Shown in pieces: positions 6,790 through 48,313 of a stretch of DNA of 64,000 nucleotides. Source of the DNA: Cellulosimicrobium cellulans (GTDB lineage Bacteria > Actinomycetota > Actinomycetes > Actinomycetales > Cellulomonadaceae). The notes under the pieces are model-generated. The model was not told where the DNA came from. It was given only the letters and a program-made list of their open reading frames with translations, and did not search any database. Both the position numbers and the translations under genes were made by a program. Location of the stretch: NCBI RefSeq assembly GCF_024124905.1, contig NZ_JAMXST010000005.1:186001-250000 (forward strand), written 5' to 3'. Position 1 is the stretch's first letter. Every line of letters starts with the position of its first letter.

Positions 6790-7584
6790 ATGGGAACGTC
6801 CTCGACCACGGCGCCCAGCGCCCCGGCACCCGGAGGCCTCGTGTCCCAGCCCGTCCTGTACCTCGTCGACCTCGTCGCGGTCACCGTCCTCGCGTTCGGC
6901 CTCTACTTCCCGCGTCACCGGCGACGCGACCTCGTGGTCGCGTACCTCGGCGTCAACGTGGGGGTGCTCGCGGTCGCGGCGACTCTCGCGACGAGCAGCG
7001 TGGGCGCCGGGCTGGGGCTCGGGCTCTTCGGGGTCCTGTCGATCATCCGGCTCCGCTCGACCGAGCTGTCCCAGACCGAGGTCGCCTACTACTTCGCTGC
7101 TCTCGCGCTGGGCCTCCTCGGCGGCCTCGGCGCGACGACCGGTTGGCTGTCCCTCGCGGGCACGGCGCTCGTCGTCGGCGTGATGGCCGTCGTCGACCAC
7201 CCGCGGGTCCTGCGCCGCGCGCAGAGCCAGAGCGTCGTCGTCGACCGCGCCCTCACCGACCGCGCCGAGCTCACCCGCCACCTGGAGGAGCTCCTCGGCG
7301 CGGAAGTCCGCGGCGTGAGCGTGCAGCGCCTCGACCTCGTCAACGACACCACCTGGGTGGACGTCCGCTACACCGAGCCGCGCACCGGCCGTCGTGCGAC
7401 GCCGGCTCCTGCCCCGGCAGCCGCCGCGCCCCTCCCCGTGCCCGACGGCGCACTCCGAGCCTCGCACGAGGCGGCGCCCTTCGCGCCGATCGCCCCGGCG
7501 ATCGCGCCGACGCCTCCGACCCCGGCAGGGGCCACGACGCCCGGCCCGGCAGCCCGGCCCGAGCGGACCGAGGCGCGCGCGTGA
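6790..7584 (+). CDS. DUF4956 membrane protein
   Basis: A membrane protein of about 264 residues with four predicted hydrophobic segments in its first 130 residues (YLVDLVAVTVLAFGLYF, LVVAYLGVNVGVLAVAATLA, a Gly/Leu-rich GLGLGLFGVLSIIRL, and ALALGLLGGLGATTGWLSL). The family's cytoplasmic part (RRAQSQSVVVDRALTDRAEL, VRGVSVQRLDLVNDTTWVDVRY) follows. The last 65 residues are Pro/Ala-rich. The start is uncertain: ATG 6718 and GTG 6841 are in frame too; 6790 is chosen because 6718 adds an unlikely non-conserved lead. It overlaps the VTC gene by GTGA, and the trio is probably one operon. DUF4956 proteins are often found beside VTC-domain proteins; the biochemical role is unknown. Confidence 0.82.
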   Translation: MGTSSTTAPSAPAPGGLVSQPVLYLVDLVAVTVLAFGLYFPRHRRRDLVVAYLGVNVGVLAVAATLATSSVGAGLGLGLFGVLSIIRLRSTELSQTEVAYYFAALALGLLGGLGATTGWLSLAGTALVVGVMAVVDHPRVLRRAQSQSVVVDRALTDRAELTRHLEELLGAEVRGVSVQRLDLVNDTTWVDVRYTEPRTGRRATPAPAPAAAAPLPVPDGALRASHEAAPFAPIAPAIAPTPPTPAGATTPGPAARPERTEARA

Positions 7585-8465
7585 GCCCCCGGACCGTGAC
7601 GGCCGACGACCGCGTCCGCGCCGTCCTCTACCCGCTCGACGGCGTCGGCCTGGACGAGCTCGTCGACGCGGCCGCGCTGCTCACCCGGGTCGACCGCAAG
7701 TACGTCCTGCCGGTCGACGACGCGGTGACGGTGCTCGACGCGCTCGCCCGGACGGCCCCCGCTCGCGTCCTCGAGATCGACGGCGCGCGCAGCGCGGCGT
7801 ACGAGTCGGTGTACTTCGACACCCCCGACCTCGCGTCGTTCCGGCTCACCGCGACGCGCCGCCGTCGGCGGTTCAAGGTCCGCACCCGCACCTACCTGGA
7901 CTCGGGCGCGAGCTTCCTCGAGGTCAAGACCCGGGCGGCGCGCGGCACGACGCTCAAGCAGCGCGTCGCGCACGACGGGTGCCCGACGGCGCTCGGCGCC
8001 GACCGCACGTTCGTGGGCCGGACGCTCGCGGCCGAGGGCATCGAGGGCGTGCCGGAGCACGCGCTCGCGCCCGGCCTCGTGTCGCGGTACCGCCGCACGA
8101 CGCTCCTGCTCCCCCGGGCCGACGGCGCCGCACGCGCCACCGTCGACACGGGCCTCACGTGGGAGCTCGACCAGCCGGGCGCGCACGCGCCGCTCGCCTG
8201 GTTGGTCCCGCACCTGGTGGTCGTCGAGACGAAGGGCGGCTCGACGCCGTCGGACCTCGACCGCCTGCTGTGGCGGCACGGCCACCGGCCCGAGCGGATC
8301 TCCAAGTACGGCACCGGTCTGGCGCTCCTGCGCCCCGACCTTCCCGACGGCCCGTGGCGCCGCGTGATCCGCCGCCACCTCTCCCCCTCCCCCGACGCGA
8401 CCGCGCCCGCGGGGACCACGACCCCTCCCGCCCGCACCCCCGGGCACGACGACAGGAGCCTCTGA
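7581..8465 (+). CDS. VTC-domain (polyphosphate polymerase-like) protein
   Basis: A 294-residue cytoplasmic protein with the triphosphate-tunnel fold known from the yeast Vtc4 polyphosphate polymerase. Candidate tunnel residues are K40 (RVDRKYVLP), R101 and R103 (KVRTRTY), E114/K116 (FLEVKTR), E216/K218 (VVETKGG) and K242 (SKYGTG). Full conservation of this charged ring suggests a working phosphate-binding site. The GTG at 7581 overlaps the stop of the DUF4956 gene by four bases, and its own TGA overlaps the next ATG, so all three are translationally coupled. Whether it makes polyphosphate or modifies a cell-envelope component is unknown. Confidence 0.87.
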   Translation: MSPRTVTADDRVRAVLYPLDGVGLDELVDAAALLTRVDRKYVLPVDDAVTVLDALARTAPARVLEIDGARSAAYESVYFDTPDLASFRLTATRRRRRFKVRTRTYLDSGASFLEVKTRAARGTTLKQRVAHDGCPTALGADRTFVGRTLAAEGIEGVPEHALAPGLVSRYRRTTLLLPRADGAARATVDTGLTWELDQPGAHAPLAWLVPHLVVVETKGGSTPSDLDRLLWRHGHRPERISKYGTGLALLRPDLPDGPWRRVIRRHLSPSPDATAPAGTTTPPARTPGHDDRSL

Positions 8466-10393
8466 TGCGCATCCGCCGACCCCTGACCACCCTGGCCGTC
8501 GCCGCGGCGGCCGCCGTCCTCGCGAGCTGCTCCGTGCTGGGGAGCGGCGCGACCACCGACAGCGCCTCGACCGACACGAACGCGACGACCACCGCGAGCG
8601 TCGTCTCGGACGCCGTCGCCGGGCTGACCCCCGACGAGGCCCGCGCCGACAACGCCGAGGTGACGGTGGACGACACCGATCTCGCGTACGACGAGTCCTC
8701 CGCGGTGACCGTCACGCTGGACGGCGACACCGCCACGGCGGACGGCGACGGCGTGACCGTCGACGGCTCGACCGTCACGATCACCGCCCCCGGCACGTAC
8801 GTGCTCAGCGGCACGCTGGAGGGGCAGGTCGTCGTGGACACCGCGGGGGACGGGCTCGTCCAGCTCGTCCTCGACGGCGCGGACGTCACCGCGACGACGA
8901 ACGCCGCCGTGACCGTGCAGGACGCGGAGAAGGTCGCCGTGATCCTCGCCGACGGCTCCACCAGCAGCCTCAACGACGCCGAGACGTACTCCGCCCAGGA
9001 CGCCGACGGCGAGCCCGACGGCGCGCTGTTCTCGACGGCCGACCTCGTGATCGGCGGCGACGGCGCGCTCAGCGTGACGTCGCACGCGAACGACGGCATC
9101 GTCTCCCAGGACGGGCTCGTCATCGCGGGCGGTGACCTCACCGTCGACGCGGGCGACGACGGGATCCGCGGCAAGGACTACCTCGTCGTCACGGGCGGGA
9201 CGCTCGACGTCACCGCCGCGAAGGACGGGCTGAAGTCGACCGAGGACGGCGACGAGACCCTCGGGTTCGTCGACGTGCGTGGCGGGACGATCACCATCGC
9301 GTCGGGCGACGACGGCGTGCAGGCCGTCACCGACGTCGTCGTCTCCGGCGGGACGCTGTCCGTGACCGCCGCGGGCGGTGCGGGCGCGGCCGTCGCCGAG
9401 GACGCCTCCGCGAAGGGCCTCACGGGGGACGTCGGCGTCGTGCTCGGCGACGACGCGACGGTCACGCTCGACTCCGCCGACGACGCACTGCACTCGAACG
9501 GCTCCGTGTCCGTCTCGGGCGGGACCGTCGAGCTGTCGTCGGGCGACGACGGCGTCCACGCCGACGGCGACGTCACCGTCTCGGGCGGCGACCTCGCCGT
9601 CACGACGTCCGTCGAGGGCATCGAGGGCGCAGCCATCACGATCGCCGGCGGCGACCTCGACGTCACGGCGAGCGACGACGGCCTCAACGCGACCGTGGGG
9701 TCGACGACCGCCGAGACAGCGACCGCGACCGACGGCGCGACCGACGGCACCCCGCCGGAGATGCCCGCCGACGGCCAGATGCCCGAGCCCCCGCAGGGCG
9801 GCGAGCTCCCCGACGGCACCGAGATGCCCCAGGGCGGCCCCGGCGGCATGGGTGGCGGCATGGACACCGACGACGGCTCGACGCTGACGATCTCCGGCGG
9901 CACCCTCACCGTCGACGCGGGCGGCGACGGGATCGACTCGAACGGCTCGCTCACCGTCACGGGCGGCGAGATCGTCGTCCAGGGTCCGACGAACGACGGC
10001 AACGGCGCTCTGGACGTCAACGGCACGTTCACGATCAGCGGCGGCTCGCTCGTCGCGGCGGGCAGCGCGGGCATGGTCGTCGTGCCGTCCACGGACTCCG
10101 CGCAGGGCTGGCTCGCGGCGGACGTGTCCGCGAGCGCCGGCGACACCGTCACCGTCACGACCACCGACGGCACCGTCCTCACCGAGCGCACGGTCACCAA
10201 GGACACCGCGAACGTCGTCGTCTCCTCGCCCGACGTGACGACCGGCGAGACCTACACGGTCACGACACCCGCCGGCTCGACGACCGCCGTCGCCGGCGAG
10301 TGGACCGGCGGCGGCATGGGCGGCCGGACCGGCGGGGGCCGCCCGGGCACCCAGGACGGCACCACGACCCAGGACGGCACCACCGAGTCCTGA
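8465..10393 (+). CDS. Carbohydrate-binding-domain lipoprotein with Asp/Gly repeats
   Basis: A 642-residue exported lipoprotein: the signal peptide ends in LASC (Cys at about 23). Residues 60-560 consist of repeated short strands of the type GG-LTV-AGDDGI (SHANDGI, GDDGIRGK, AKDGLKSTE, GDDGVQA, ADDALHSNG, GDDGVHADG), which predict a right-handed beta-helix with Asp-rich turns able to bind calcium. Such proteins are annotated as carbohydrate-binding-domain proteins. A Met/Pro/Gly-rich insertion lies near residues 425-470, and the tail is Gly/Thr-rich. It is the third gene of the DUF4956-VTC trio (TGATG overlap), which suggests a joint function at the cell surface. A strong terminator follows. 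Confidence 0.85.
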   Translation: MRIRRPLTTLAVAAAAAVLASCSVLGSGATTDSASTDTNATTTASVVSDAVAGLTPDEARADNAEVTVDDTDLAYDESSAVTVTLDGDTATADGDGVTVDGSTVTITAPGTYVLSGTLEGQVVVDTAGDGLVQLVLDGADVTATTNAAVTVQDAEKVAVILADGSTSSLNDAETYSAQDADGEPDGALFSTADLVIGGDGALSVTSHANDGIVSQDGLVIAGGDLTVDAGDDGIRGKDYLVVTGGTLDVTAAKDGLKSTEDGDETLGFVDVRGGTITIASGDDGVQAVTDVVVSGGTLSVTAAGGAGAAVAEDASAKGLTGDVGVVLGDDATVTLDSADDALHSNGSVSVSGGTVELSSGDDGVHADGDVTVSGGDLAVTTSVEGIEGAAITIAGGDLDVTASDDGLNATVGSTTAETATATDGATDGTPPEMPADGQMPEPPQGGELPDGTEMPQGGPGGMGGGMDTDDGSTLTISGGTLTVDAGGDGIDSNGSLTVTGGEIVVQGPTNDGNGALDVNGTFTISGGSLVAAGSAGMVVVPSTDSAQGWLAADVSASAGDTVTVTTTDGTVLTERTVTKDTANVVVSSPDVTTGETYTVTTPAGSTTAVAGEWTGGGMGGRTGGGRPGTQDGTTTQDGTTES

Positions 10394-10446: not shown

Positions 10447-10899
10447 ACGCTGCCCGCCGACGCTGAACCGTGGTCGTTCCTTCAGCCTTGCGGAGTCGGG
10501 TACGCGGCGTCCTCGAGTCTCAAGCCCGCGGGTCGGGTCCGCGGCGCGGGTGGCCTCGGTGCTCGGGGCTGCGGCGCCGTCACCCCGGTCACTCGGCCGT
10601 GGGTTCGAGGAGCGCCGCTCTGACGCCCCTTCGCATCCGAGCCCACCCCCACCGCTCGGCGATCGTCTCGCCCGGGACGTCGGTCGCCGCTTGCGACCAT
10701 CGGGTTGCCCGCCGGAGCAGGGTGCCCGTGGCGGCTCGGCGCGAGGCCGACCAGGCCGTCCTGGTGGGTCGAGCAGGCGACGCGGGTTCGTCCCGCGCGC
10801 CGGACGCGCCCGAATCACCTGCTCGACGTGACGGCGCCGCGACCGGCGACCGTCCCGCGCGCGAGGTCGCGCGGCCTGGGCCGAACGCACCCGCGGGCG
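10447..10899. other. Gene-free stretch
   Basis: I see no supported gene. Long frames cross it, but they have only the Arg/Pro-rich composition of GC-rich shadow frames. A 10-bp inverted repeat, GTCGAGCAGG (10768-10777) with CCTGCTCGAC (10818-10827), encloses 40 bp. Together with the repeat element that follows, it separates the trio from the sirtuin gene. Confidence 0.5.
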
Positions 10900-11110
10900 G
10901 TCGCCCACGGTGAGGACCGACCAGGGCGGGACGACGTAGGGCGGGGTGGGTGGTGGTGCCGCGTCGTGGCGGGCCTGGCGGGAGCCGCGAGGAACGAGCG
11001 GCGGATGGTAGACGCGGCACCACCACCCACCCCGCCCACCCAGGGCAACCACACGCCGTCGAACACAGAAACCACGGCTCTACCTCGCGCGACCACGGCT
11101 CTACCTCGCG
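10900..11110. repeat. Interspersed hairpin element, copy 1
   Basis: A perfect 27-bp inverted repeat (10939-10965 with 11011-11037) encloses 45 bp. The right flank continues with AACCACACGCCGTCGAACAC and two inverted 21-bp words, GGCTCTACCTCG at 11076 and 11097. The same arrangement occurs at 48000-48240: both arms are identical, the inner 45/46 bp differ only at one spot, and the right flank is very similar. There is no recognisable transposase. It lies upstream of the sirtuin gene. Confidence 0.85.
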
Positions 11111-15614: not shown

Positions 15615-18600
15615 TCAGCCCTCGCCGCAGCGCTCCCCGCGCTCCCAGAAGAGCCCGATCAGGTCGCGGTCCGGTCGCACGAAGGCGCTGCCGTTGCGCG
15701 CCGTGTAGTTCCAGCCGTCGTAGGAGACCTCGGCGTCGTGGTCGTACCAGACGCCCGCCTGCCACTCCGGGGCGCACTCGGCCACGGCGGTGAAGCCCTC
15801 GACCTTGAGCTGCTCGGTCCACGAGCGCGTGTGGACGACGTACGTCGCGCCGGACCAGGGCGCCTCGCCCAGGCTCTCGGTGCGCCGCTCCCCGGCTCCG
15901 ACGGTCCACTCGCCCTTGGCGTGCCCCGTCACCCGGAACGTCACCGGGACGTTCGACCCGGAGTTGTCGAGCAGCACCGACACGGCGCGGTACGAGTGGC
16001 CGCGCCTCGCGTCGTAGTACGGGTCGCCGAGGACGAGGCTCGCCGCCGGCTGCTCGACGGCGCAGTCGACCGCGTCGAAGCGCACCGGGAGCGTCTCGGT
16101 GAAGGGCACCCCGAGGACCGTGCGCGACAGCACGAGCTCGACCTTGCCGGCCTTGATCGCGAGCGCGCCCGTCGCGAGGTCGGCGCCCGCGCTCGCCCCG
16201 GGGGCGACGTCGCCCAGGTCACGGTCACCGAACGGCGTGCGCGCGACGACGTGCATCGCCTCGGTCGAGTCGTTGCGCAGCCCGACGGAGAGCACGACCC
16301 CGCCCGTCCCCGGGGCGCACTGCGCGGACACCGTCGGGGTGGCCGACCAGTCAGGCTGGTAGCCGGCACCCTGGTACCGCGCGGTGAGGCGCGCGTCCGC
16401 GAAGGGCGTGCCGAGCACGGTGCGCGACTGGCGGAACGTGACGGCGCCGGCCTTCACGTCGAGCGCTCGCGTGTCCACGGTGAGGGTCACGGTCACGCCG
16501 GGCGCGACCTGCCGCGCGGGAGCCGAGTCCCCGTAGCCCGCGGCCGACATGACGACGTCGATCGTCTCGGGCGAGTCGTTGGTGAGCGTGCCGACGATCT
16601 TCACCGACCCGTCCTGCCAGCCGGCGTCGACCGTCGCCGAGGTCGCCCACCGCGGGTCGTACGTCACGGCGGCGTAGCGGGCCTCGACCGTCGTCGGCGC
16701 CGGGCCCGCAGGCGCCGCGCGCTCGACCGTGAACGTCGCCGTCCCGGCCGGGACGGACAGCGCCTTCGCGTCCACGGTGAACGTCGCGTCCGCGCCCGGG
16801 GCCACGTCGACCGGTGCGGCGTCGCCGTGCGGCGTCGACATCCCGACGCGGAGCGTGGTCGTCGAGTACGGGTTGTGGAACGTGCCCGTCACGACGGACG
16901 TCCCGACCCCGGCACCGGACGGCACCGCCCAGGCCGCCGTCGCGCGCGCCGCGCCCGTGACCGGCTTCCAGTCGAAGCAGTCGATCGCCGGGTGCTCGCC
17001 GGCGACGATCTCGTGGGTGAACTGCCGTCCCGCCACCGTGGTCGAGAGGACGACCCGGGCGTCCCCGGCGGGCAGCCAGCCCCCGGTCCCGCCGCGCAGG
17101 TCGACGCTCCGTCCCGGGGCGACCGGAACGGCGTCGTGGGCGGTGCCGGCGACCACGAGGGCTGCCCGGAGATCGCCGTAGGCCGTGCGATTCGTGAAGG
17201 GGACCGTCACCGATGCGGCACCGGCCTCACCACGGGCGCTGCACTGCACGCGCAGGCCGTCCCCGTCGACCCCCGACGCCGCGCCCTCCCACGGCCGGGC
17301 CACGTCGACCGAGGCGTCCGCGCTCCCGGCTCGCGCGTCCGGGGCCGTCCCGCGCAGGCGGACCACGGCCTTCTCGACCGCCCGGTCACGGTCCGCGACG
17401 AGCGTCAGCGGGACCGTGGACGCGGCGCCGGGTGCGAGGCTCGTGCCGGAGGGGGCGGCACACGTCACGCTCCGACCCTCGTCCGTGGCGCACGTCCAGA
17501 CCCCGGCGGACCCGCCGGCGAGGGTGACGCCGGGCGGGAGGTCGACGGCGAGGCGCGGCTCGACGAGCGGCTGGTCACCGCTGTTGCGCACCACGACGCG
17601 CAGGACTCCCTCTCCCGGGTTGTCCAGGCGCAGTCCGTCGGACGGCGCCACGACGCGGACCTCGGGCCCGTAGTACCGGACGGGCGCCGACGGGAAGGTC
17701 CACGGCTTCGCCGGGATGCCGGTGGCGCGCACGGACGCGGCGAAGGGCGGGTAGTCGCCCCCGGACTCGGCCTCGACGCGGACGACGAGCTCCTGGCTCT
17801 CTCCGGGGTCGAGGATGCCGACCGAGCACGTGACCAGGCTCGTCCCGTCCGGCTGGGGCACCGCGCTGCCGCACGGGAGCGAGGCCGCGGACAGGGGGCT
17901 GCCGACGACGGTCCCGCGCGCGACGAGCGACGAGCCCGGGGTCGTCACGCCCGCCGGGAGCGTGAGGTCGACGAAGACCTCCTCCGCCGCTCGACCGCCG
18001 GTGTTCGAGGCGGTGATGACGAGGTCCGCGGGGACGCGCGCCGCGAGCGTGACCGGGGCGAGCGACAGCTCGAGGGCCGCCGGCGCGGGCTCGGGCGTTC
18101 CCGTGCCCGGGTCGGTCGGCCCGGGCGTGCCCGTCCCGGGATCGGTGGGCGCAGGCGTGCCGGGGCCGGTGGACCCGCCCGGCGTCGTCGTGCCCGGCGT
18201 CGACCCGACGGGCGTGGAGCCGTCGGTGGACCCGCCGCCGGTCCCGGTCGTGTCGCCCGAACCGGCGGTGGTCTGGTCGGTCGGGGCGGGCGGGATGTTC
18301 GTGGGCGACGTCGGGTCGGTGGTGGGGTCCGGCGTCGTCGTGGTCCCCGTGGTCGGTGACGCGGACGGGGACGGAGAGGACTGCGAGGTCGGGGTGGGGG
18401 CCGGGTCCGACGAGAACGCGCCGAGCGCGCCCGCGACGCCGAGCCCGGCGACCGTGAGCACGCCGACCGTGACGGCGGCCGCGGCGAGCGGCGCGGACGT
18501 GACGAGCGCGACGAGCCCACCGGCACCCGCGGCGGCGAGCGCGCCGCTGCCCGCGGCAGCGCCTCCGGCCGCCGCTGCCGCCCCGCCGACGGACGCCGCG

Positions 18601-19625
18601 CCGGTCCCGACCGCGGCGCCGGAACCACCGGCCGCGCTCGCGGCCGCTCCCGCTCCCCCGACGGCACCGGTGCCCGCCGCGCCACCACCGGCGCCCGCGC
18701 CCGCATCGCCGGACCCGCCGGCCGCACCGGACCCGCCGGCCGATCCCGCGCCACCGCTCGACGAGCCCTGCAGGGCGGCACCGACACCGCCGGCGACGGC
18801 CGCGCCGCCGACCGTCGGGAGCGCCGTCCCGACGAGGCCGAGCGCGCCGACGCCGAGGACCAGGGGGGCGATGACGGCGCGCATGCCGTGCGACACGTCG
18901 CCCAGCTCCAGCACGAGCGCGCGGCACTCGCCGCAGCCGTCGAGGTGCGACTCCACGCGCGCCGTCTCGCGCTTGGCGAGCCCGCCGCGCACGTACGACC
19001 CGAGGAGCGCGTTGACCGTGCGGCACTCCTCGGCGGGCACGGACGTCAGGTGCTGCTGGAGGTACGCCTGCCGCAGCCCCTCGCGCGCGCGGTAGGCGAG
19101 CGCGGACACGCCGTTCGCGGTGAGACCCAGGATCGGCGCGATCTCGGCCGGGGAGAGGTTCTCGACCTCCGTGTACCAGAGCACGGCGCGCCACCGCTCG
19201 GGGAGGTCCTGGTAGGCGCGCGTGACCGTCGAGCGCTCGAACCCCTCGAGGGTCGGGTCCTCGGTGGACGCCATGGGACCGAACGCCGTCTCGAACGTGC
19301 GCTCGTCGTCCGTCGGCTGGGTGCGCCGCGCGCCGTTGACGAGGTCGTAGGAGAGGCGTCGGACGACGGTGAAGAGGTAGGCGCGGAAGGTGACGTCGGG
19401 CCCGCCCCCGCCCTGCAGGACGGAGAGCGTGCGGGCGAACGCGTCGGAGACGACGTCGTCGGCGTCGGCGGTCGAGCGGACGTACTGGCGCGCGACCGTC
19501 CGGGCCGCGGCGGCGTGGCGCTCGTACAGCACGCCGTAGGCGCTGGTGTCGCCCTCGCGCACGGCGGAGATGAGCTCGGCGTCGCTGAAGGCCTCGCTCC
19601 ACACCCGTTCCTGCGCCTGCGTCAT
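15615..19625 (-). CDS. ECF sigma factor fused to zinc finger, membrane segments and surface domains
   Basis: A 1336-residue single protein. Residues 20-95 are sigma region 2 (DADDVVSDAFARTL, FRAYLFTVVRRLSYD) and 135-190 region 4 (LPERWRAVLWYTEVENLSPAEIA, GLTANGVSALAYRAREGLR). Residues 201-234 form an anti-sigma-type zinc finger (Cys201, then HLDGCGEC with His227, Cys231, Cys234). A hydrophobic stretch lies at 250-272, a Gly/Ala-rich part at 285-368, and a clear membrane segment at 369-403. Then comes a Ser/Thr/Pro linker (405-515), repeated Ig/CARDB-like beta domains (515-1280) and a terminal 50-residue module with WQAGVWYDHDAEVSYDGWNY like CBM5/12 chitin-binding modules. Regulator, inhibitor and sensor are thus one chain; release probably needs proteolysis. 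Actinobacterial ECF groups with such extensions are known. Targets are unknown. Confidence 0.9.
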   Translation of the reverse strand: MTQAQERVWSEAFSDAELISAVREGDTSAYGVLYERHAAAARTVARQYVRSTADADDVVSDAFARTLSVLQGGGGPDVTFRAYLFTVVRRLSYDLVNGARRTQPTDDERTFETAFGPMASTEDPTLEGFERSTVTRAYQDLPERWRAVLWYTEVENLSPAEIAPILGLTANGVSALAYRAREGLRQAYLQQHLTSVPAEECRTVNALLGSYVRGGLAKRETARVESHLDGCGECRALVLELGDVSHGMRAVIAPLVLGVGALGLVGTALPTVGGAAVAGGVGAALQGSSSGGAGSAGGSGAAGGSGDAGAGAGGGAAGTGAVGGAGAAASAAGGSGAAVGTGAASVGGAAAAAGGAAAGSGALAAAGAGGLVALVTSAPLAAAAVTVGVLTVAGLGVAGALGAFSSDPAPTPTSQSSPSPSASPTTGTTTTPDPTTDPTSPTNIPPAPTDQTTAGSGDTTGTGGGSTDGSTPVGSTPGTTTPGGSTGPGTPAPTDPGTGTPGPTDPGTGTPEPAPAALELSLAPVTLAARVPADLVITASNTGGRAAEEVFVDLTLPAGVTTPGSSLVARGTVVGSPLSAASLPCGSAVPQPDGTSLVTCSVGILDPGESQELVVRVEAESGGDYPPFAASVRATGIPAKPWTFPSAPVRYYGPEVRVVAPSDGLRLDNPGEGVLRVVVRNSGDQPLVEPRLAVDLPPGVTLAGGSAGVWTCATDEGRSVTCAAPSGTSLAPGAASTVPLTLVADRDRAVEKAVVRLRGTAPDARAGSADASVDVARPWEGAASGVDGDGLRVQCSARGEAGAASVTVPFTNRTAYGDLRAALVVAGTAHDAVPVAPGRSVDLRGGTGGWLPAGDARVVLSTTVAGRQFTHEIVAGEHPAIDCFDWKPVTGAARATAAWAVPSGAGVGTSVVTGTFHNPYSTTTLRVGMSTPHGDAAPVDVAPGADATFTVDAKALSVPAGTATFTVERAAPAGPAPTTVEARYAAVTYDPRWATSATVDAGWQDGSVKIVGTLTNDSPETIDVVMSAAGYGDSAPARQVAPGVTVTLTVDTRALDVKAGAVTFRQSRTVLGTPFADARLTARYQGAGYQPDWSATPTVSAQCAPGTGGVVLSVGLRNDSTEAMHVVARTPFGDRDLGDVAPGASAGADLATGALAIKAGKVELVLSRTVLGVPFTETLPVRFDAVDCAVEQPAASLVLGDPYYDARRGHSYRAVSVLLDNSGSNVPVTFRVTGHAKGEWTVGAGERRTESLGEAPWSGATYVVHTRSWTEQLKVEGFTAVAECAPEWQAGVWYDHDAEVSYDGWNYTARNGSAFVRPDRDLIGLFWERGERCGEG

Positions 19626-19775
19626 GTCACCCGCCCCGGAGACCGCCCCGATCCGAGGCGTACGGTGGCCATAGTAGACGGCCGTCCAACTTCGGGGCAG
19701 AGGGCGTCCGGCGACGGAACGGTAACGGCCGGAGTCCTCCCCGTTCGCCCGATTTCACCTCGGACCCCGCGTCCC

Positions 19776-19800
19776 GGAAACTTCTTCGCCGACTCGCGTC
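19776..19800 (+). promoter_or_regulatory. ECF-type promoter-like sequence
   Basis: GGAAAC at 19776-19781 and CGTC at 19797-19800 are 15 bp apart, resembling the GGAAC/CGTC elements read by many ECF sigma factors. It directly precedes the degenerate GGDEF gene, beside the ECF-fusion gene. If real, transcription would begin inside the predicted start, favouring the in-frame ATG at 19831. Tentative. Confidence 0.3.
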
Positions 19801-20598
19801 ATGGATCGGCCGCTCGTCCGTCTCATCGACATGGACCACCTCCACGGGTACACCGTGCCCGCTCCCGACGCGGTACGCGAGCGCTGGCGTCGCGCGAGCG
19901 CCGAGAGCGTCTGGCTGCGACCGGGCGACTGGTACCACCCTGCCGTCGACGCCCTCGCCGAGGCGCTGTGCGAGGAGCGGGACGGGACGCCGGCCGCCGA
20001 ACGGCTCGGCCGGGTGCGGGCCGAGGCGGGGGTCGGGATCGGCGAGGCCATCGACGACGTGGTGTGCCTGTACCGGGCGCACGACCGCGAGCCGGGGACC
20101 GACCTGCTCCGCGCGGTCGCGGTCGGGTGGTCCGACGGCTACGAGGCGACCCCCGTGACGCCCGAGGTCATGGACCCCGAGTCCGGCCTCGCGACGTCCC
20201 AGTACCTGGTCCAGCGGCTCCGGGAGACGTACGGCGTCGCCCAGCGCGCCGGGGTCGACGCCGCCGCGACGCACGGCCTGCTCGTCGTGGACGTCGCGCT
20301 CGACCACCTGACCGGGTGGCAGCGCTTCGCGCGGTCGGCGGCGATGGGTCGCGCGCTCACCCACACGTTCGGCGACGGCCACCCCATGGCCTCGCTCGGC
20401 AACGGGCTCTTCGTCGTGCTCGGGGAGCGCGGCGCCGACGACGACGCGCTGCGCACCGTGCTCCGCCACAACATCGAGCGCACGGGGCTCGCGCTGGGCG
20501 TCACGGCGATCCTGCGGCGACCGCCGCGCGTCTGGGCCGAGCCGCTCCCCCGCACCCACGCCGCTGCTGTCCAGCTGCTCGACGCGCTCCAGCGCTGA
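19801..20598 (+). CDS. Degenerate GGDEF-like protein
   Basis: A 265-residue cytoplasmic protein. Residues 1-115 are a helical N-terminal region of unknown type. Residues 120-230 follow the outline of a GGDEF domain: DPESGLATSQYLVQRL in place of the usual D-LTGL-N, a central LLVVDVALDHLTGW strand in place of the metal-binding D--FK, and ASLGNGLFVVLGERG in place of GGDEF. The catalytic GGDEF residues and the metal Asp are lost, so it should not make c-di-GMP and may be a sensor. The start is ATG 19801, or 19831 if the promoter at 19776 is used. It is divergent from the sigma-factor fusion, 175 bp apart. Confidence 0.65.
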   Translation: MDRPLVRLIDMDHLHGYTVPAPDAVRERWRRASAESVWLRPGDWYHPAVDALAEALCEERDGTPAAERLGRVRAEAGVGIGEAIDDVVCLYRAHDREPGTDLLRAVAVGWSDGYEATPVTPEVMDPESGLATSQYLVQRLRETYGVAQRAGVDAAATHGLLVVDVALDHLTGWQRFARSAAMGRALTHTFGDGHPMASLGNGLFVVLGERGADDDALRTVLRHNIERTGLALGVTAILRRPPRVWAEPLPRTHAAAVQLLDALQR

Positions 20599-24354: not shown

Positions 24355-26234
<1,880 letters not shown>

Positions 26235-26294
26235 GTGTGCTGCCTCCGTTGTGGATGGGGTGCCCGACGGCGCACGCGCGCCCGGGCACACCGG

Positions 26295-26315
26295 GTTGAG
26301 TCTGCTTCACTCAAG
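26295..26315. promoter_or_regulatory. HAIR operator 1 (HspR site)
   Basis: GTTGAGT-N7-ACTCAAG matches the HspR-associated inverted repeat CTTGAGT-N7-ACTCAAG at 13 of 14 positions. It lies 61 bp before the dnaK start. Confidence 0.92.
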
Positions 26316-26357
26316 GTAGGCACCGGGTGCGCTCGCACGCAAGCCCGATCACCAGAA

Positions 26358-26378
26358 CTTGAGTCCATCAGGCTCAAC
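26358..26378. promoter_or_regulatory. HAIR operator 2 (HspR site)
   Basis: CTTGAGT-N7-GCTCAAC matches HAIR at 12 of 14 positions. It lies 42 bp upstream of the first HAIR site and only 17 bp from the end of the alanyl-tRNA synthetase-like gene. Two sites suggest cooperative HspR binding. Confidence 0.88.
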
Positions 26379-26394
26379 CTTCACCCAGGGCGAA

Positions 26395-27792
26395 CTATTC
26401 CCCGCTCGTCGCGGCCGCCCGCGAGCGCGCCCGCTGGCGCTCGCGCTGCAGCGCGTAGCCCTCCCGCCAGTCCGGGGCGAGGGCCATGTCGCGGCGCCGG
26501 ACCTCGTCGACCGACAGCTCGACGGGGAAGCCCCAGGTGTCCGCCAGCACGAACAGGTCGTCCCCGGTGACCGTCGCGCCCCCGAGCTTCTCGAGCTCCC
26601 GGAGCCCGCGGTGCACCGTGCGACGGAAGCGCGACTCCTCGTCGCGCAGGACCGTGCTCAGCTCCTCGCGCTGCGCGACCAGGCCCGGGTAGCCGTCGCC
26701 GTACGTCTCGGCCACGACGGCGACGAGGTCGTCGGCGAACCGCTCCTCCAGGCCGAGGTGGAGGGCGTGCACGACCGCCCGGCGGACGAGCCGCCGCAGG
26801 ACGTACCCGTGCGCCTTGTTGCTCGGGCGCACCCCGTCGGCGGCGAGGAACGTCGCGGCCCGGACGTGGTCGGCGATCACGCGGAACGGGCGCGGGTCGT
26901 CCTCGTACGCGCGACCGCTGAGCGACTCGAGCCGGTCCACCAGCGGGCGCAGGAGGCTCACGTCGAACACGTCGGCGGTCGCCAGGGCGGCCGCGGCGAT
27001 GCGCTCGAGCCCGCCACCGAAGTCGATGCTCGGGTCGTCGAGGGGGACGAAGCCCTCGGTGGTCCGGCGGTAGCGCATGAACACCTGGTTGCCGATCTCG
27101 ACGAACCGGCCCCCGTCGCTCGCGGGATGGGGCTCACCGGCCGCCGGGTCGTGGTGCTCGGGGCCGAGGTCGTAGAAGACCTCCGAGTCGGGCCCGCACG
27201 GGTCTCCCACCGGCGTGCCCTCCAGGCCGCCTCCCCGGCTCCACCAGTTCTCCTCGGCGTCGTAGAAGAAGACGCGACCGCCGCGCGTCCCGTCGCGGTC
27301 GCCGTCCGCGCGGGAACCCACGTCCACGAGCGGCGCCTCGATCCCGTGCTCGGCGAACACCGTGACCCAGGCGCGAGCCGCCGCGTCGTCACGCGGGATC
27401 CCGTGCTCGGGCGCCCCTCGGAAGCACGTGACGTACAGCCGCTCGAGGTCGACGCCGACCTGCGCGAGGAAGTCGGCGAACCACCGGATCTGCTGCTCCA
27501 CGTCGGCAGACCCCAGGCTCCAGTTGCCCAGCATCTCGAAGAAGGTCGTGTGCCGCCGGTCCCCGACCTCGTCGATGTCCTGCGCCCGCACGCACGGCTG
27601 CGAGTCGACCAGGAGACACCCCGCGTCGTGCTCCCGCACGCCCAGCAGGTAGGGCATCAGCGGCTGCATCCCCGCGCCCGTGAACAGCGTCGTCGGGTCG
27701 TCGCGGAGCACCAGGGGCGCTCGCTCGATCACGGCGTGCCCCCGGGAGGCGAAGAACTCGAGATAGGCCGCGCGGATCTCCTGGGCGTTCAT
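26395..27792 (-). CDS. Alanyl-tRNA synthetase core only (no editing or C-Ala domain)
   Basis: A 465-residue protein with the AlaRS aminoacylation and tRNA-recognition domains. Class II motif 1 lies in NAQEIRAAYLEFFASRGH, motif 2 in TTFFEMLGNWSLGSA and motif 3 in FGGGLERIAA. RVIADHVRAATFLAADGVRPSNKAHGYVLRRLVRRAV is the conserved tRNA-recognition helix. The protein ends where the editing domain of a normal 880-residue AlaRS begins, at almost the length (461) of the E. coli N-terminal fragment known to charge tRNA-Ala. It is likely a second AlaRS paralogue without proofreading; a full-length alaS should exist elsewhere. It is the gene before the dnaK operon, same strand. Confidence 0.88.
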   Translation of the reverse strand: MNAQEIRAAYLEFFASRGHAVIERAPLVLRDDPTTLFTGAGMQPLMPYLLGVREHDAGCLLVDSQPCVRAQDIDEVGDRRHTTFFEMLGNWSLGSADVEQQIRWFADFLAQVGVDLERLYVTCFRGAPEHGIPRDDAAARAWVTVFAEHGIEAPLVDVGSRADGDRDGTRGGRVFFYDAEENWWSRGGGLEGTPVGDPCGPDSEVFYDLGPEHHDPAAGEPHPASDGGRFVEIGNQVFMRYRRTTEGFVPLDDPSIDFGGGLERIAAAALATADVFDVSLLRPLVDRLESLSGRAYEDDPRPFRVIADHVRAATFLAADGVRPSNKAHGYVLRRLVRRAVVHALHLGLEERFADDLVAVVAETYGDGYPGLVAQREELSTVLRDEESRFRRTVHRGLRELEKLGGATVTGDDLFVLADTWGFPVELSVDEVRRRDMALAPDWREGYALQRERQRARSRAAATSGE

Positions 27793-47891: not shown

Positions 47892-47975
47892 CGAGGCAGA
47901 GCCCTGGTCACCCGAGGTAGAGCCGAGGCCACGCGAGGTAGAGCCGTGGTTGGGCGAGGTAGAGCCCTGGTGGGC
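47892..47975. repeat. Four tandem 21-bp units (CGAGGTAGAGCC family)
   Basis: Units begin at 47892, 47913, 47934 and 47955, exactly 21 bp apart, each starting CGAGGYAGAGCC and followed by a variable 9 bases. Inverted units lie at 48182, 48203 and 48224, again 21 bp apart. The same word occurs at 11076, 52099 and 56072. They lie after the LacI gene. Confidence 0.85.
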
Positions 47976-47999
47976 CGAAAGAGATCCCTAGCCACGAGG

Positions 48000-48240
48000 C
48001 GTGCGGTCGCCCGGGCGAGCGAGGACCTGGGTGAGACGGCGTAGGGCGGGGTGGGTGGTGGTGCCGCGTCGTGGTCGGGCCTGGCGGGAGCCGCGAGGAA
48101 CGAGCGGCGGATGGTAGACGCGGCACCACCACCCACCCCGCCCACCCAGGGCAACCACACGCCGTCGAACACAAGAACCACGGCTCTACCTCGGCAGACC
48201 GGGGCTCTACCTCGCGCGACCAGGGCTCTACCTCGCCGCG
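48000..48240. repeat. Interspersed hairpin element, copy 2
   Basis: The 27-bp arms 48044-48070 and 48117-48143 are perfect inverted repeats and identical to those at 10939-10965 and 11011-11037. The inner 46 bp differ from copy 1 by one small change. The right flank continues with the same AACCACACGCCGTCGAACAC stretch and then three inverted 21-bp units. The 474-bp gap between LacI and the hexapeptide gene consists almost wholly of this element and the 21-bp repeats. Confidence 0.88.
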
Positions 48241-48313
48241 GGGGGCTGGAATCCTGGGCACCGCTCCGACGTTATGTCAGCAGAACACCGCCGACAGACC
48301 CTGAGGAGGTCAC

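Follow-up and report, generated by a model that had tools for sequence, protein, structure and literature searches.

A probable one-piece, membrane-held ECF sigma factor of Cellulosimicrobium cellulans and its candidate link to surface adhesins

What is the function of a protein that begins as a sigma factor and ends as a surface module? Such a protein is encoded in a 64,000-nucleotide stretch of the Cellulosimicrobium cellulans genome (assembly GCF_024124905.1, contig NZ_JAMXST010000005.1, positions 186,001–250,000; hereafter the window) by a gene of 1336 codons at positions 15615–19625, minus strand. An extracytoplasmic function (ECF) sigma factor, a zinc-binding anti-sigma (ZAS) domain, a membrane segment and a surface module follow one another in this single chain. 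The inner end of the giant protein is probably able to activate genes, and its outer end is a long adhesin-like arm. A conserved DNA signal points to sticky cell-surface proteins as the products that the sigma factor turns on. On balance, we favour the reading that the whole chain is a membrane-held, one-piece ECF sigma factor of the ECF48/52/53 layout, which is probably freed by proteolysis and controls surface adhesins.

The gene starts with ATG, and its coordinates include the stop codon. The frame is open on the minus strand, and the plus-strand reading of the same frame contains a stop. Sigma-70 region 2 occupies residues 33–101 (19323–19529; all features of the gene are on the minus strand) and matches PF04542 with an E-value of 1.1e-10 (41.5 bits, cut-off 24). 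Region 4 follows at residues 136–182 (19080–19220; PF08281, Sigma70_r4_2, 3.7e-6, 26.9 bits, cut-off 25.7), and the sigma70-ECF model TIGR02937 is also passed (69.1 bits, cut-off 42.9). Residues 10–190 match ECF sigma factors in a phmmer search of the PDB and in Foldseek, and the Foldseek matches include sigma chains from sigma/anti-sigma complexes. The ZAS-type zinc finger, with the pattern HxxxCxxC, spans residues 201–235 (18921–19025; PF13490, zf-HC2, 8.4e-10, 39 bits, cut-off 22.2). A zinc-finger profile of 34 family members matches the anti-sigma factor RslA (3hug) at 1.5e-5, RsiW at 0.062 and ChrR at 0.1. The first-pass annotation of the window had placed sigma regions 2 and 4, an anti-sigma-type zinc finger, a membrane segment and a surface module in one frame, and this observation is confirmed, on the minus strand. 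No RsgI domain was among the Pfam matches of the protein at E ≤ 1; sigma and ZAS domains share one chain.

The fusion is not an artefact. The sigma-ZAS part (residues 1–250) has an ortholog at 85–100% identity in each of 17 Cellulosimicrobium genomes, the window's own included. The orthologous gene is complete in 12 of them, each time as a single frame of 1336–1771 residues, and runs off contig ends in the remaining five. Because all 12 complete orthologs are single frames, the open reading frame (ORF) in the window is a genuine single gene and not a sequencing or assembly join, the error that the first-pass annotation had named as fatal to its proposal. The host genome encodes two paralogs with extensions of their own (47% and 38% identical) and a third, 44% identical, without an extension. 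The second paralogous fused sigma gene (L054, host C4:1–19999) lies near genes for an Ig/cadherin-like surface protein, an acyltransferase-SGNH protein and a glycosyltransferase 2. For wider comparisons, we used the best 80 of 272 matches to the sigma-ZAS part from one scan of genome contigs, all from Actinobacteria. The majority of these relatives share the layout, and their extensions differ widely, reaching up to 2149 residues.

The zinc finger is followed by a first hydrophobic stretch (residues 251–270, 18816–18875) with a conserved APLVLG core, which from hydropathy and alignment probably does not span the membrane. A Gly/Ala-rich linker, of variable length in the ortholog alignment (residues 271–361, 18543–18815), leads to the membrane segment predicted from hydropathy at residues 361–404 (18414–18545). 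An even number of spanning segments would conflict with an exposed C terminus, as had been pointed out earlier. Topology was compared in 71 proteins, the window protein and 70 relatives, with ten mostly truncated relatives left out. A strong second segment is present in all 71, a count that is partly by construction since the later segment was picked as the maximum, and the first stretch reaches the threshold Kyte-Doolittle mean of 1.6 in 51. Summed over the 71 proteins, there are 69 Lys/Arg and 52 Asp/Glu residues between the segments, and 51 and 243, respectively, in the 30 residues past the second. Because the second segment is universal, the first is weaker and the charges are biased across the second, a single span from inside to outside with an exported C terminus is favoured. 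The earlier concern is thus largely settled for the family. Against this assignment, both stretches of the window protein score alike in hydrophobicity (2.20 and 2.14). A C-terminal LPLTG motif in the Arthrobacter relative L129, an LPXTG-type sortase anchor that is meaningful only outside the cell, agrees with export of the C terminus.

Which genes might the sigma factor control? A promoter-like motif, GCGTCAT-N17-GTCTC (19796–19824, plus strand), lies in front of the sigma gene and faces a divergent partner gene. The motif is found at the sigma/partner junction in 16 of the 17 genus genomes and recurs across genera, in 38 of the 80 relatives. In 69 thinned upstream regions of 260 nt each, ATGACGC, the reverse of GCGTCAT, occurs in 43 regions, compared with 1.5 expected from shuffles. 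Sigma upstream DNA (33.6 kb) contains 39 matches to the form GCGTCAT-N16/18-[GC]TCTC, spread over 38 of 80 loci, compared with five in another 1.02 Mb of these loci; four of these five are in Microbacteriaceae loci, three of them directly behind the sigma gene. The related pattern CGTCATN{16,18}STCTCAT also matches a recurring site that resembles coding DNA. In the window, the motif ends 6 nt ahead of the partner's inner ATG, as in a leaderless transcript.

The partner gene (19831–20598, plus strand) encodes 255 residues from the inner ATG, and its frame is open from 19801. A tblastn search located the gene in 54 of the 80 loci, divergent from the sigma gene and within 0.5 kb of it in 52, so the first-pass description of a switch without separate partners needs to be changed. 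The partner profile matches the GGDEF protein 7e6g at 2.1e-6 and FimX at 1.5e-3 in the PDB, and Pfam GGDEF_2 was detected in five of 39 partner sequences, the window's member not among them. Since the GGDEF/GGEEF active-site motif is missing from all 39, this degenerate-GGDEF protein is probably not a diguanylate cyclase.

The placement of the motif elsewhere in the genome points to surface proteins. The exact motif in its G form has 110 matches in the 17 genus genomes versus one for the backwards motif, an imperfect control that weakens the comparison, since GTCATG is frequent at start codons. All ten exact matches in the host genome were examined, and four lie directly before a recognizable target. 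One precedes the partner. The second precedes a paralogous sigma gene (at +49), which itself follows the gene of a DUF5979 protein that carries a sorting signal. The other two precede sortase-anchored adhesins: a 3146-residue protein (+59) with pAdhesive_15, DUF5979 repeats (24 matched stretches in two halves) and an LAVTG signal, and a thioester (TED/TQ) adhesin with LPATG (+60). The relaxed pattern CGTCATN{16,17}GTCT has 30 host matches versus four backwards. Of the 29 that were located by script, six lay outside coding-like frames with an open frame starting within 130 nt; two of these (L261 and L271) were judged implausible by eye, which leaves the same four targets.

The adhesin placement recurs in other genomes. 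Eight chosen exact sites from other genus genomes were inspected, of which three precede adhesins (L236 from the same species, L237 and L242), one a paralogous sigma gene (L234), and the rest nothing convincing or an unrelated ORF (L240, L241, L243 and L244). The giant adhesin keeps its motif in genome G012, where the window ortholog is the only sigma factor of the family (the next match is 30% identical, 40.7 bits); in G010, a shorter pAdhesive/DUF5979 protein has the motif at +62 with a different spacer. In a fresh test, 18 exact sites were read in four further genomes. An Oerskovia genome has only two, before the partner (+6) and before a pAdhesive_15/DUF5979 protein (+47); their number is about that of uniform chance, and their placement alone is informative. 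In a Compostimonas genome the motif precedes the sigma gene itself, and in two Demequina genomes it precedes the partner and other genes, none of them an adhesin. Several of the 18 sites have no clear target or a target of another kind, a small secreted protein among them, and three are in coding-like DNA. Both Demequina genomes also have the motif before a small LRV-like protein, L288 of Demequina flava with a Pfam LRV match and the similar L292 without one. In Demequina G200, an exact motif stands 3 nt before a MerR/BldC-like gene in a leaderless-like arrangement (L295).

These sites could also be read differently: the motif might be recognized by another sigma factor, or act as an operator solely of the divergent GGDEF-like gene, with the adhesin copies being coincidental or part of another regulon. 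This is supported by the orientation of the upstream motifs, of which 36 of 39 face the divergent gene, and by the five exact host sites without an obvious target or within coding-like DNA. The motif does, however, face the sigma gene in three relatives (L138, L147 and L152) and a paralogous sigma gene in the host, and its placement before adhesins recurs in Oerskovia and in the species of G010 and G012. We regard such a reader or operator as unlikely.

The sigma gene has an upstream footprint of its own, CCNCTG-N18-GTCTA[CG][TC]AT (19671–19703, minus strand), which is conserved in an alignment of 17 upstream regions. In 15 of the 17 genus genomes, the form CCNCTG-N17/19-GTCTANNAT matches exactly at a single place, namely at the sigma gene. 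The footprint is the probable promoter of the sigma gene, and since it occurs only once per genome, it yields no regulon. A by-eye comparison of the Arthrobacter sigma and pilus promoters found no motif common to them.

What could the outer part of the protein sense? Beyond the membrane segment, a Ser/Thr/Pro linker (residues 406–514, 18084–18410) leads to a series of predicted beta domains. The first is DUF11-like (about 515–640, 17706–18083), beta-only in the structure model, with a PF01345 match at residues 536–626 that is marginally below the Pfam cut-off (24.5 versus 24.6 bits). A second DUF11-like beta domain (about 650–775, 17301–17678) is supported by alignment and model. Four repeated beta modules follow, detected with an iterated profile at residues 794–869 (17019–17246, 1.7e-17), 892–970 (16716–16952, 5.9e-24), 993–1075 (16401–16649, 3.6e-34) and 1093–1175 (16101–16349, 2.4e-26). 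A C-terminal beta domain (about 1181–1265, 15831–16085), conserved in the alignment and beta in the model, precedes the CBM5/12-like end module assigned by profile comparison (1284–1336, 15618–15776). The model of the outer arm (822 residues, built from six sequences; predicted local distance difference test score, pLDDT, 83; predicted template modelling score, pTM, 0.37) is all beta, and Foldseek searches with it retrieved nothing more specific than generic proteins of tandem beta domains, at low TM scores.

The end module bears on the idea, put forward in the first-pass annotation, that the chain is a one-piece polysaccharide sensor resembling SigI/RsgI, in which the end module would recognize chitin or some other glycan, and glycosidases would be under the control of the sigma factor. 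The likeness to CBM5/12 is seen by profile: 11 ortholog end modules, combined into one profile, hit the chitinase C chitin-binding domain (2d49) with an E-value of 1.1e-5 over profile positions 8–61 of 61. The single sequence, however, remains below the Pfam cut-off, as the last 71 residues match CBM_5_12 weakly (E 0.022, 15.2 bits, cut-off 26.2, model positions 1–23 of 44), and single members of the family likewise fall below it. The adjacent surface tryptophan pair of chitinase C has a role in binding. This pair (AKWW in 2d49) is absent from the end module, and the aligned orthologs have RN-[GADS] or ARNG-type residues instead. Nor does any examined predicted promoter site precede a glycosidase; the sites precede adhesins, a sigma gene and the partner. 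The polysaccharide trigger is thus not supported, and we consider a glycan sensor of this kind improbable, even though carbohydrate-binding domains are reported for ECF52 members (PMC5826349).

In the sequences compared, the sigma-ZAS part is nearly invariant, whereas the outer part appears to lose and swap modules. Among seven orthologs, the rate of nonsynonymous substitution (dN) in the sigma-ZAS part is 0.01–0.07. There are four homologous beta modules in the window protein, as in the ortholog from the second genome of its species, and five to six in the ten complete orthologs of other species, relative to which the window protein is shorter by 203–400 residues near residue 880. Compared with genomes G002 and G004, the synonymous rate (dS) is 0.55–0.94 in residues 515–880, 0.04–0.24 in the sigma-ZAS part and 0.12–0.28 in residues 881–1336; in residues 641–880, part of the excess may stem from the alignment of non-equivalent modules. 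High dS between low-dS flanks suggests cassette replacement in residues 515–880 rather than relaxed selection alone. A swapping sensor arm on an invariant sigma factor suggests a natural platform for sensor exchange.

The extensions of the relatives are similarly diverse. Among 55 extensions (window and 54 relatives), DUF11 was detected in 15, CARDB in seven, CBM_5_12 in one and a complete sortase pilin in one. The pilin belongs to L129 (Arthrobacter sp. efr-133-TYG-118, 6941–9544, plus strand), a single frame of 867 residues that fuses an ECF sigma factor to the pilin in the order sigma, zinc finger, membrane segment, Pro-rich linker, GramPos_pilinD1 (3e-24), pilinBB, SpaA (1.2e-22) and LPLTG anchor. 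The fusion adjoins an ancillary pilin-like gene and a separate pilin gene. Sigma genes of the family also adjoin class C sortase and pilin genes on two annotated plasmids, from Arthrobacter alpinus (L154, NZ_CP013746.1, with the arrangement present twice) and Paenarthrobacter sp. OM7 (L153, NZ_CP123580.1). The linkage to pili is a trait of the Arthrobacter-type branch and not of the whole family.

Such arms could be surface adhesins in their own right, with the sigma factor reporting their synthesis, export or anchoring as a surface-assembly checkpoint. The varying arm length and module number (four versus five to six), the middle cassette that has diverged far beyond its flanks, synonymous sites included, and the fusion to a full sortase pilin would all suit this function. 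The window protein, however, has no sortase signal and its extracellular location is a prediction, and the exported parts are short in most of the 80 relatives; we find a checkpoint quite improbable.

For the membrane-held sigma factor that we favour, a mechanism can be proposed. The sigma domain (residues 1–190) would be kept in the cytoplasm by its own ZAS domain (201–235) and the membrane span (361–404), while the Ser/Thr/Pro linker and the modular Ig/DUF11-like arm with its CBM5/12-like end would be exported. A surface event, most likely binding to or tension on the arm, may trigger proteolysis that frees the sigma domain. The free sigma domain would then transcribe from GCGTCAT-N17-[GC]TCTC promoters, and its regulon would comprise the divergent degenerate-GGDEF partner and sortase-anchored adhesins (the DUF5979/pAdhesive giant and the thioester adhesin); paralogous sigma factors would be linked to it. 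The layout, its conservation, the partner and the motif with its positions are read directly from the sequences, whereas self-inhibition, export, proteolysis, recognition of the motif by this sigma factor and the trigger are inferred. We speculate, more tentatively, that the protein represents one branch of an actinobacterial family whose transcription factor belongs physically to the surface apparatus under its control. The sigma factor would be covalently joined through the membrane to an adhesin-like arm, in Arthrobacter a complete sortase pilin, and transcription of the sortase-anchored adhesins and the partner would depend, through one family-wide promoter code, on whether the arm is in contact, under tension or anchored to the wall.

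Several observations weigh against this mechanism. The model of the sigma-ZAS part (pLDDT 76.4, pTM 0.39) leaves the packing of its domains unsettled. Among the ten exact host sites, a small membrane ORF follows one, and another five either stand before no evident target or fall within coding-like DNA. A paralogous sigma factor, where present, could be the reader of the adhesin sites, and the footprint upstream of the sigma gene differs from the GCGTCAT motif, so that another sigma factor could transcribe it. Linkage to surface genes is not general, since pilus genes are present in only three of the 80 loci, and sorting signals near the family genes are not enriched (three ORFs in two of 80 loci, 1.06 Mb, versus one in a 110-kb control).

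How does the protein compare with known systems? In logic it resembles Clostridium SigI/RsgI, in which an extracellular module is coupled to a sigma factor. SigI and RsgI are two separate proteins, unlike the single chain with a ZAS domain described here. The fused layout itself is already known (PMC8999054, PMC10766802, PMC5826349). ECF48, ECF52 and ECF53 are described as fusions of sigma factor, zinc finger and one or two membrane helices for which proteolytic activation is expected (PMC8999054). The window protein is like ECF53 and ECF48 in layout, a likeness by description and not by group model or tree (PMC8999054), and the kinship to ECF52/53 suggested in the first-pass annotation agrees, by the same kind of comparison, with a single chain that joins a sigma factor and zinc finger to a membrane segment and an exported extension. 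A close parallel in description is the ECF52 protein SCO4117 of Streptomyces coelicolor, in a report that calls an ECF52 member the first characterized: sigma factor, pfam13490 zinc finger, membrane region, Pro-rich linker and exported carbohydrate-binding domain form one chain (PMC5826349). According to the same report, a truncated SCO4117 that lacks the zinc finger, the membrane region and the binding domain turns on the expression of SCO4117, and proteolytic release is proposed for ECF52 (PMC5826349). Unlike the window protein, SCO4117 has a smart00776 module, the putative motif CSGYN-17-SRHA and the neighbour atrA (PMC5826349). The window system differs by its CBM5/12-like end, the array of four to six beta modules, the degenerate-GGDEF partner and GCGTCAT-N17-[GC]TCTC; no smart00776-type binding module was among its Pfam matches at E ≤ 1, in a search with Pfam and not with the SMART model. 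IutY of Pseudomonas putida (ECF243) is likewise a sigma factor fused to a membrane anti-sigma factor and released by proteolysis; it differs in answering a siderophore through cell-surface signalling, and the passages of PMC8999054 that describe it mention neither a ZAS domain nor an adhesin-like arm.

No link of fused sigma factors to GGDEF, sortase, pilin or adhesin was found in the literature searched, nor did we encounter there the adhesin regulon, the sigma-pilin fusion, the motif or the degenerate-GGDEF partner. Relative to the known layout, these four appear to be additions, the regulon as a candidate. For most fused ECF sigma factors, little is known about what triggers them, which genes they target and which promoter codes they read, and a candidate promoter code with a conserved partner and a short list of target adhesins makes the question directly testable. 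The sigma-pilin fusion, if true, would connect a structure of the cell wall directly and covalently with RNA polymerase.

Two further features of the window were recorded. The sequence GTCTACCAT at positions 11005 and 48111 was considered as a promoter and rejected, as both occurrences are within near-identical copies of an interspersed repeat (10850–11110 and 47950–48300) with inverted arms and GGTAGAGCC repeats. A strong match to PF10712 (NAD-GH), which we take to be a possibly spurious family, lies at 24537–26570 on the plus strand. It is antiparallel to a long frame of the minus strand close to a DnaJ gene and may be an antisense frame of a chaperone gene.

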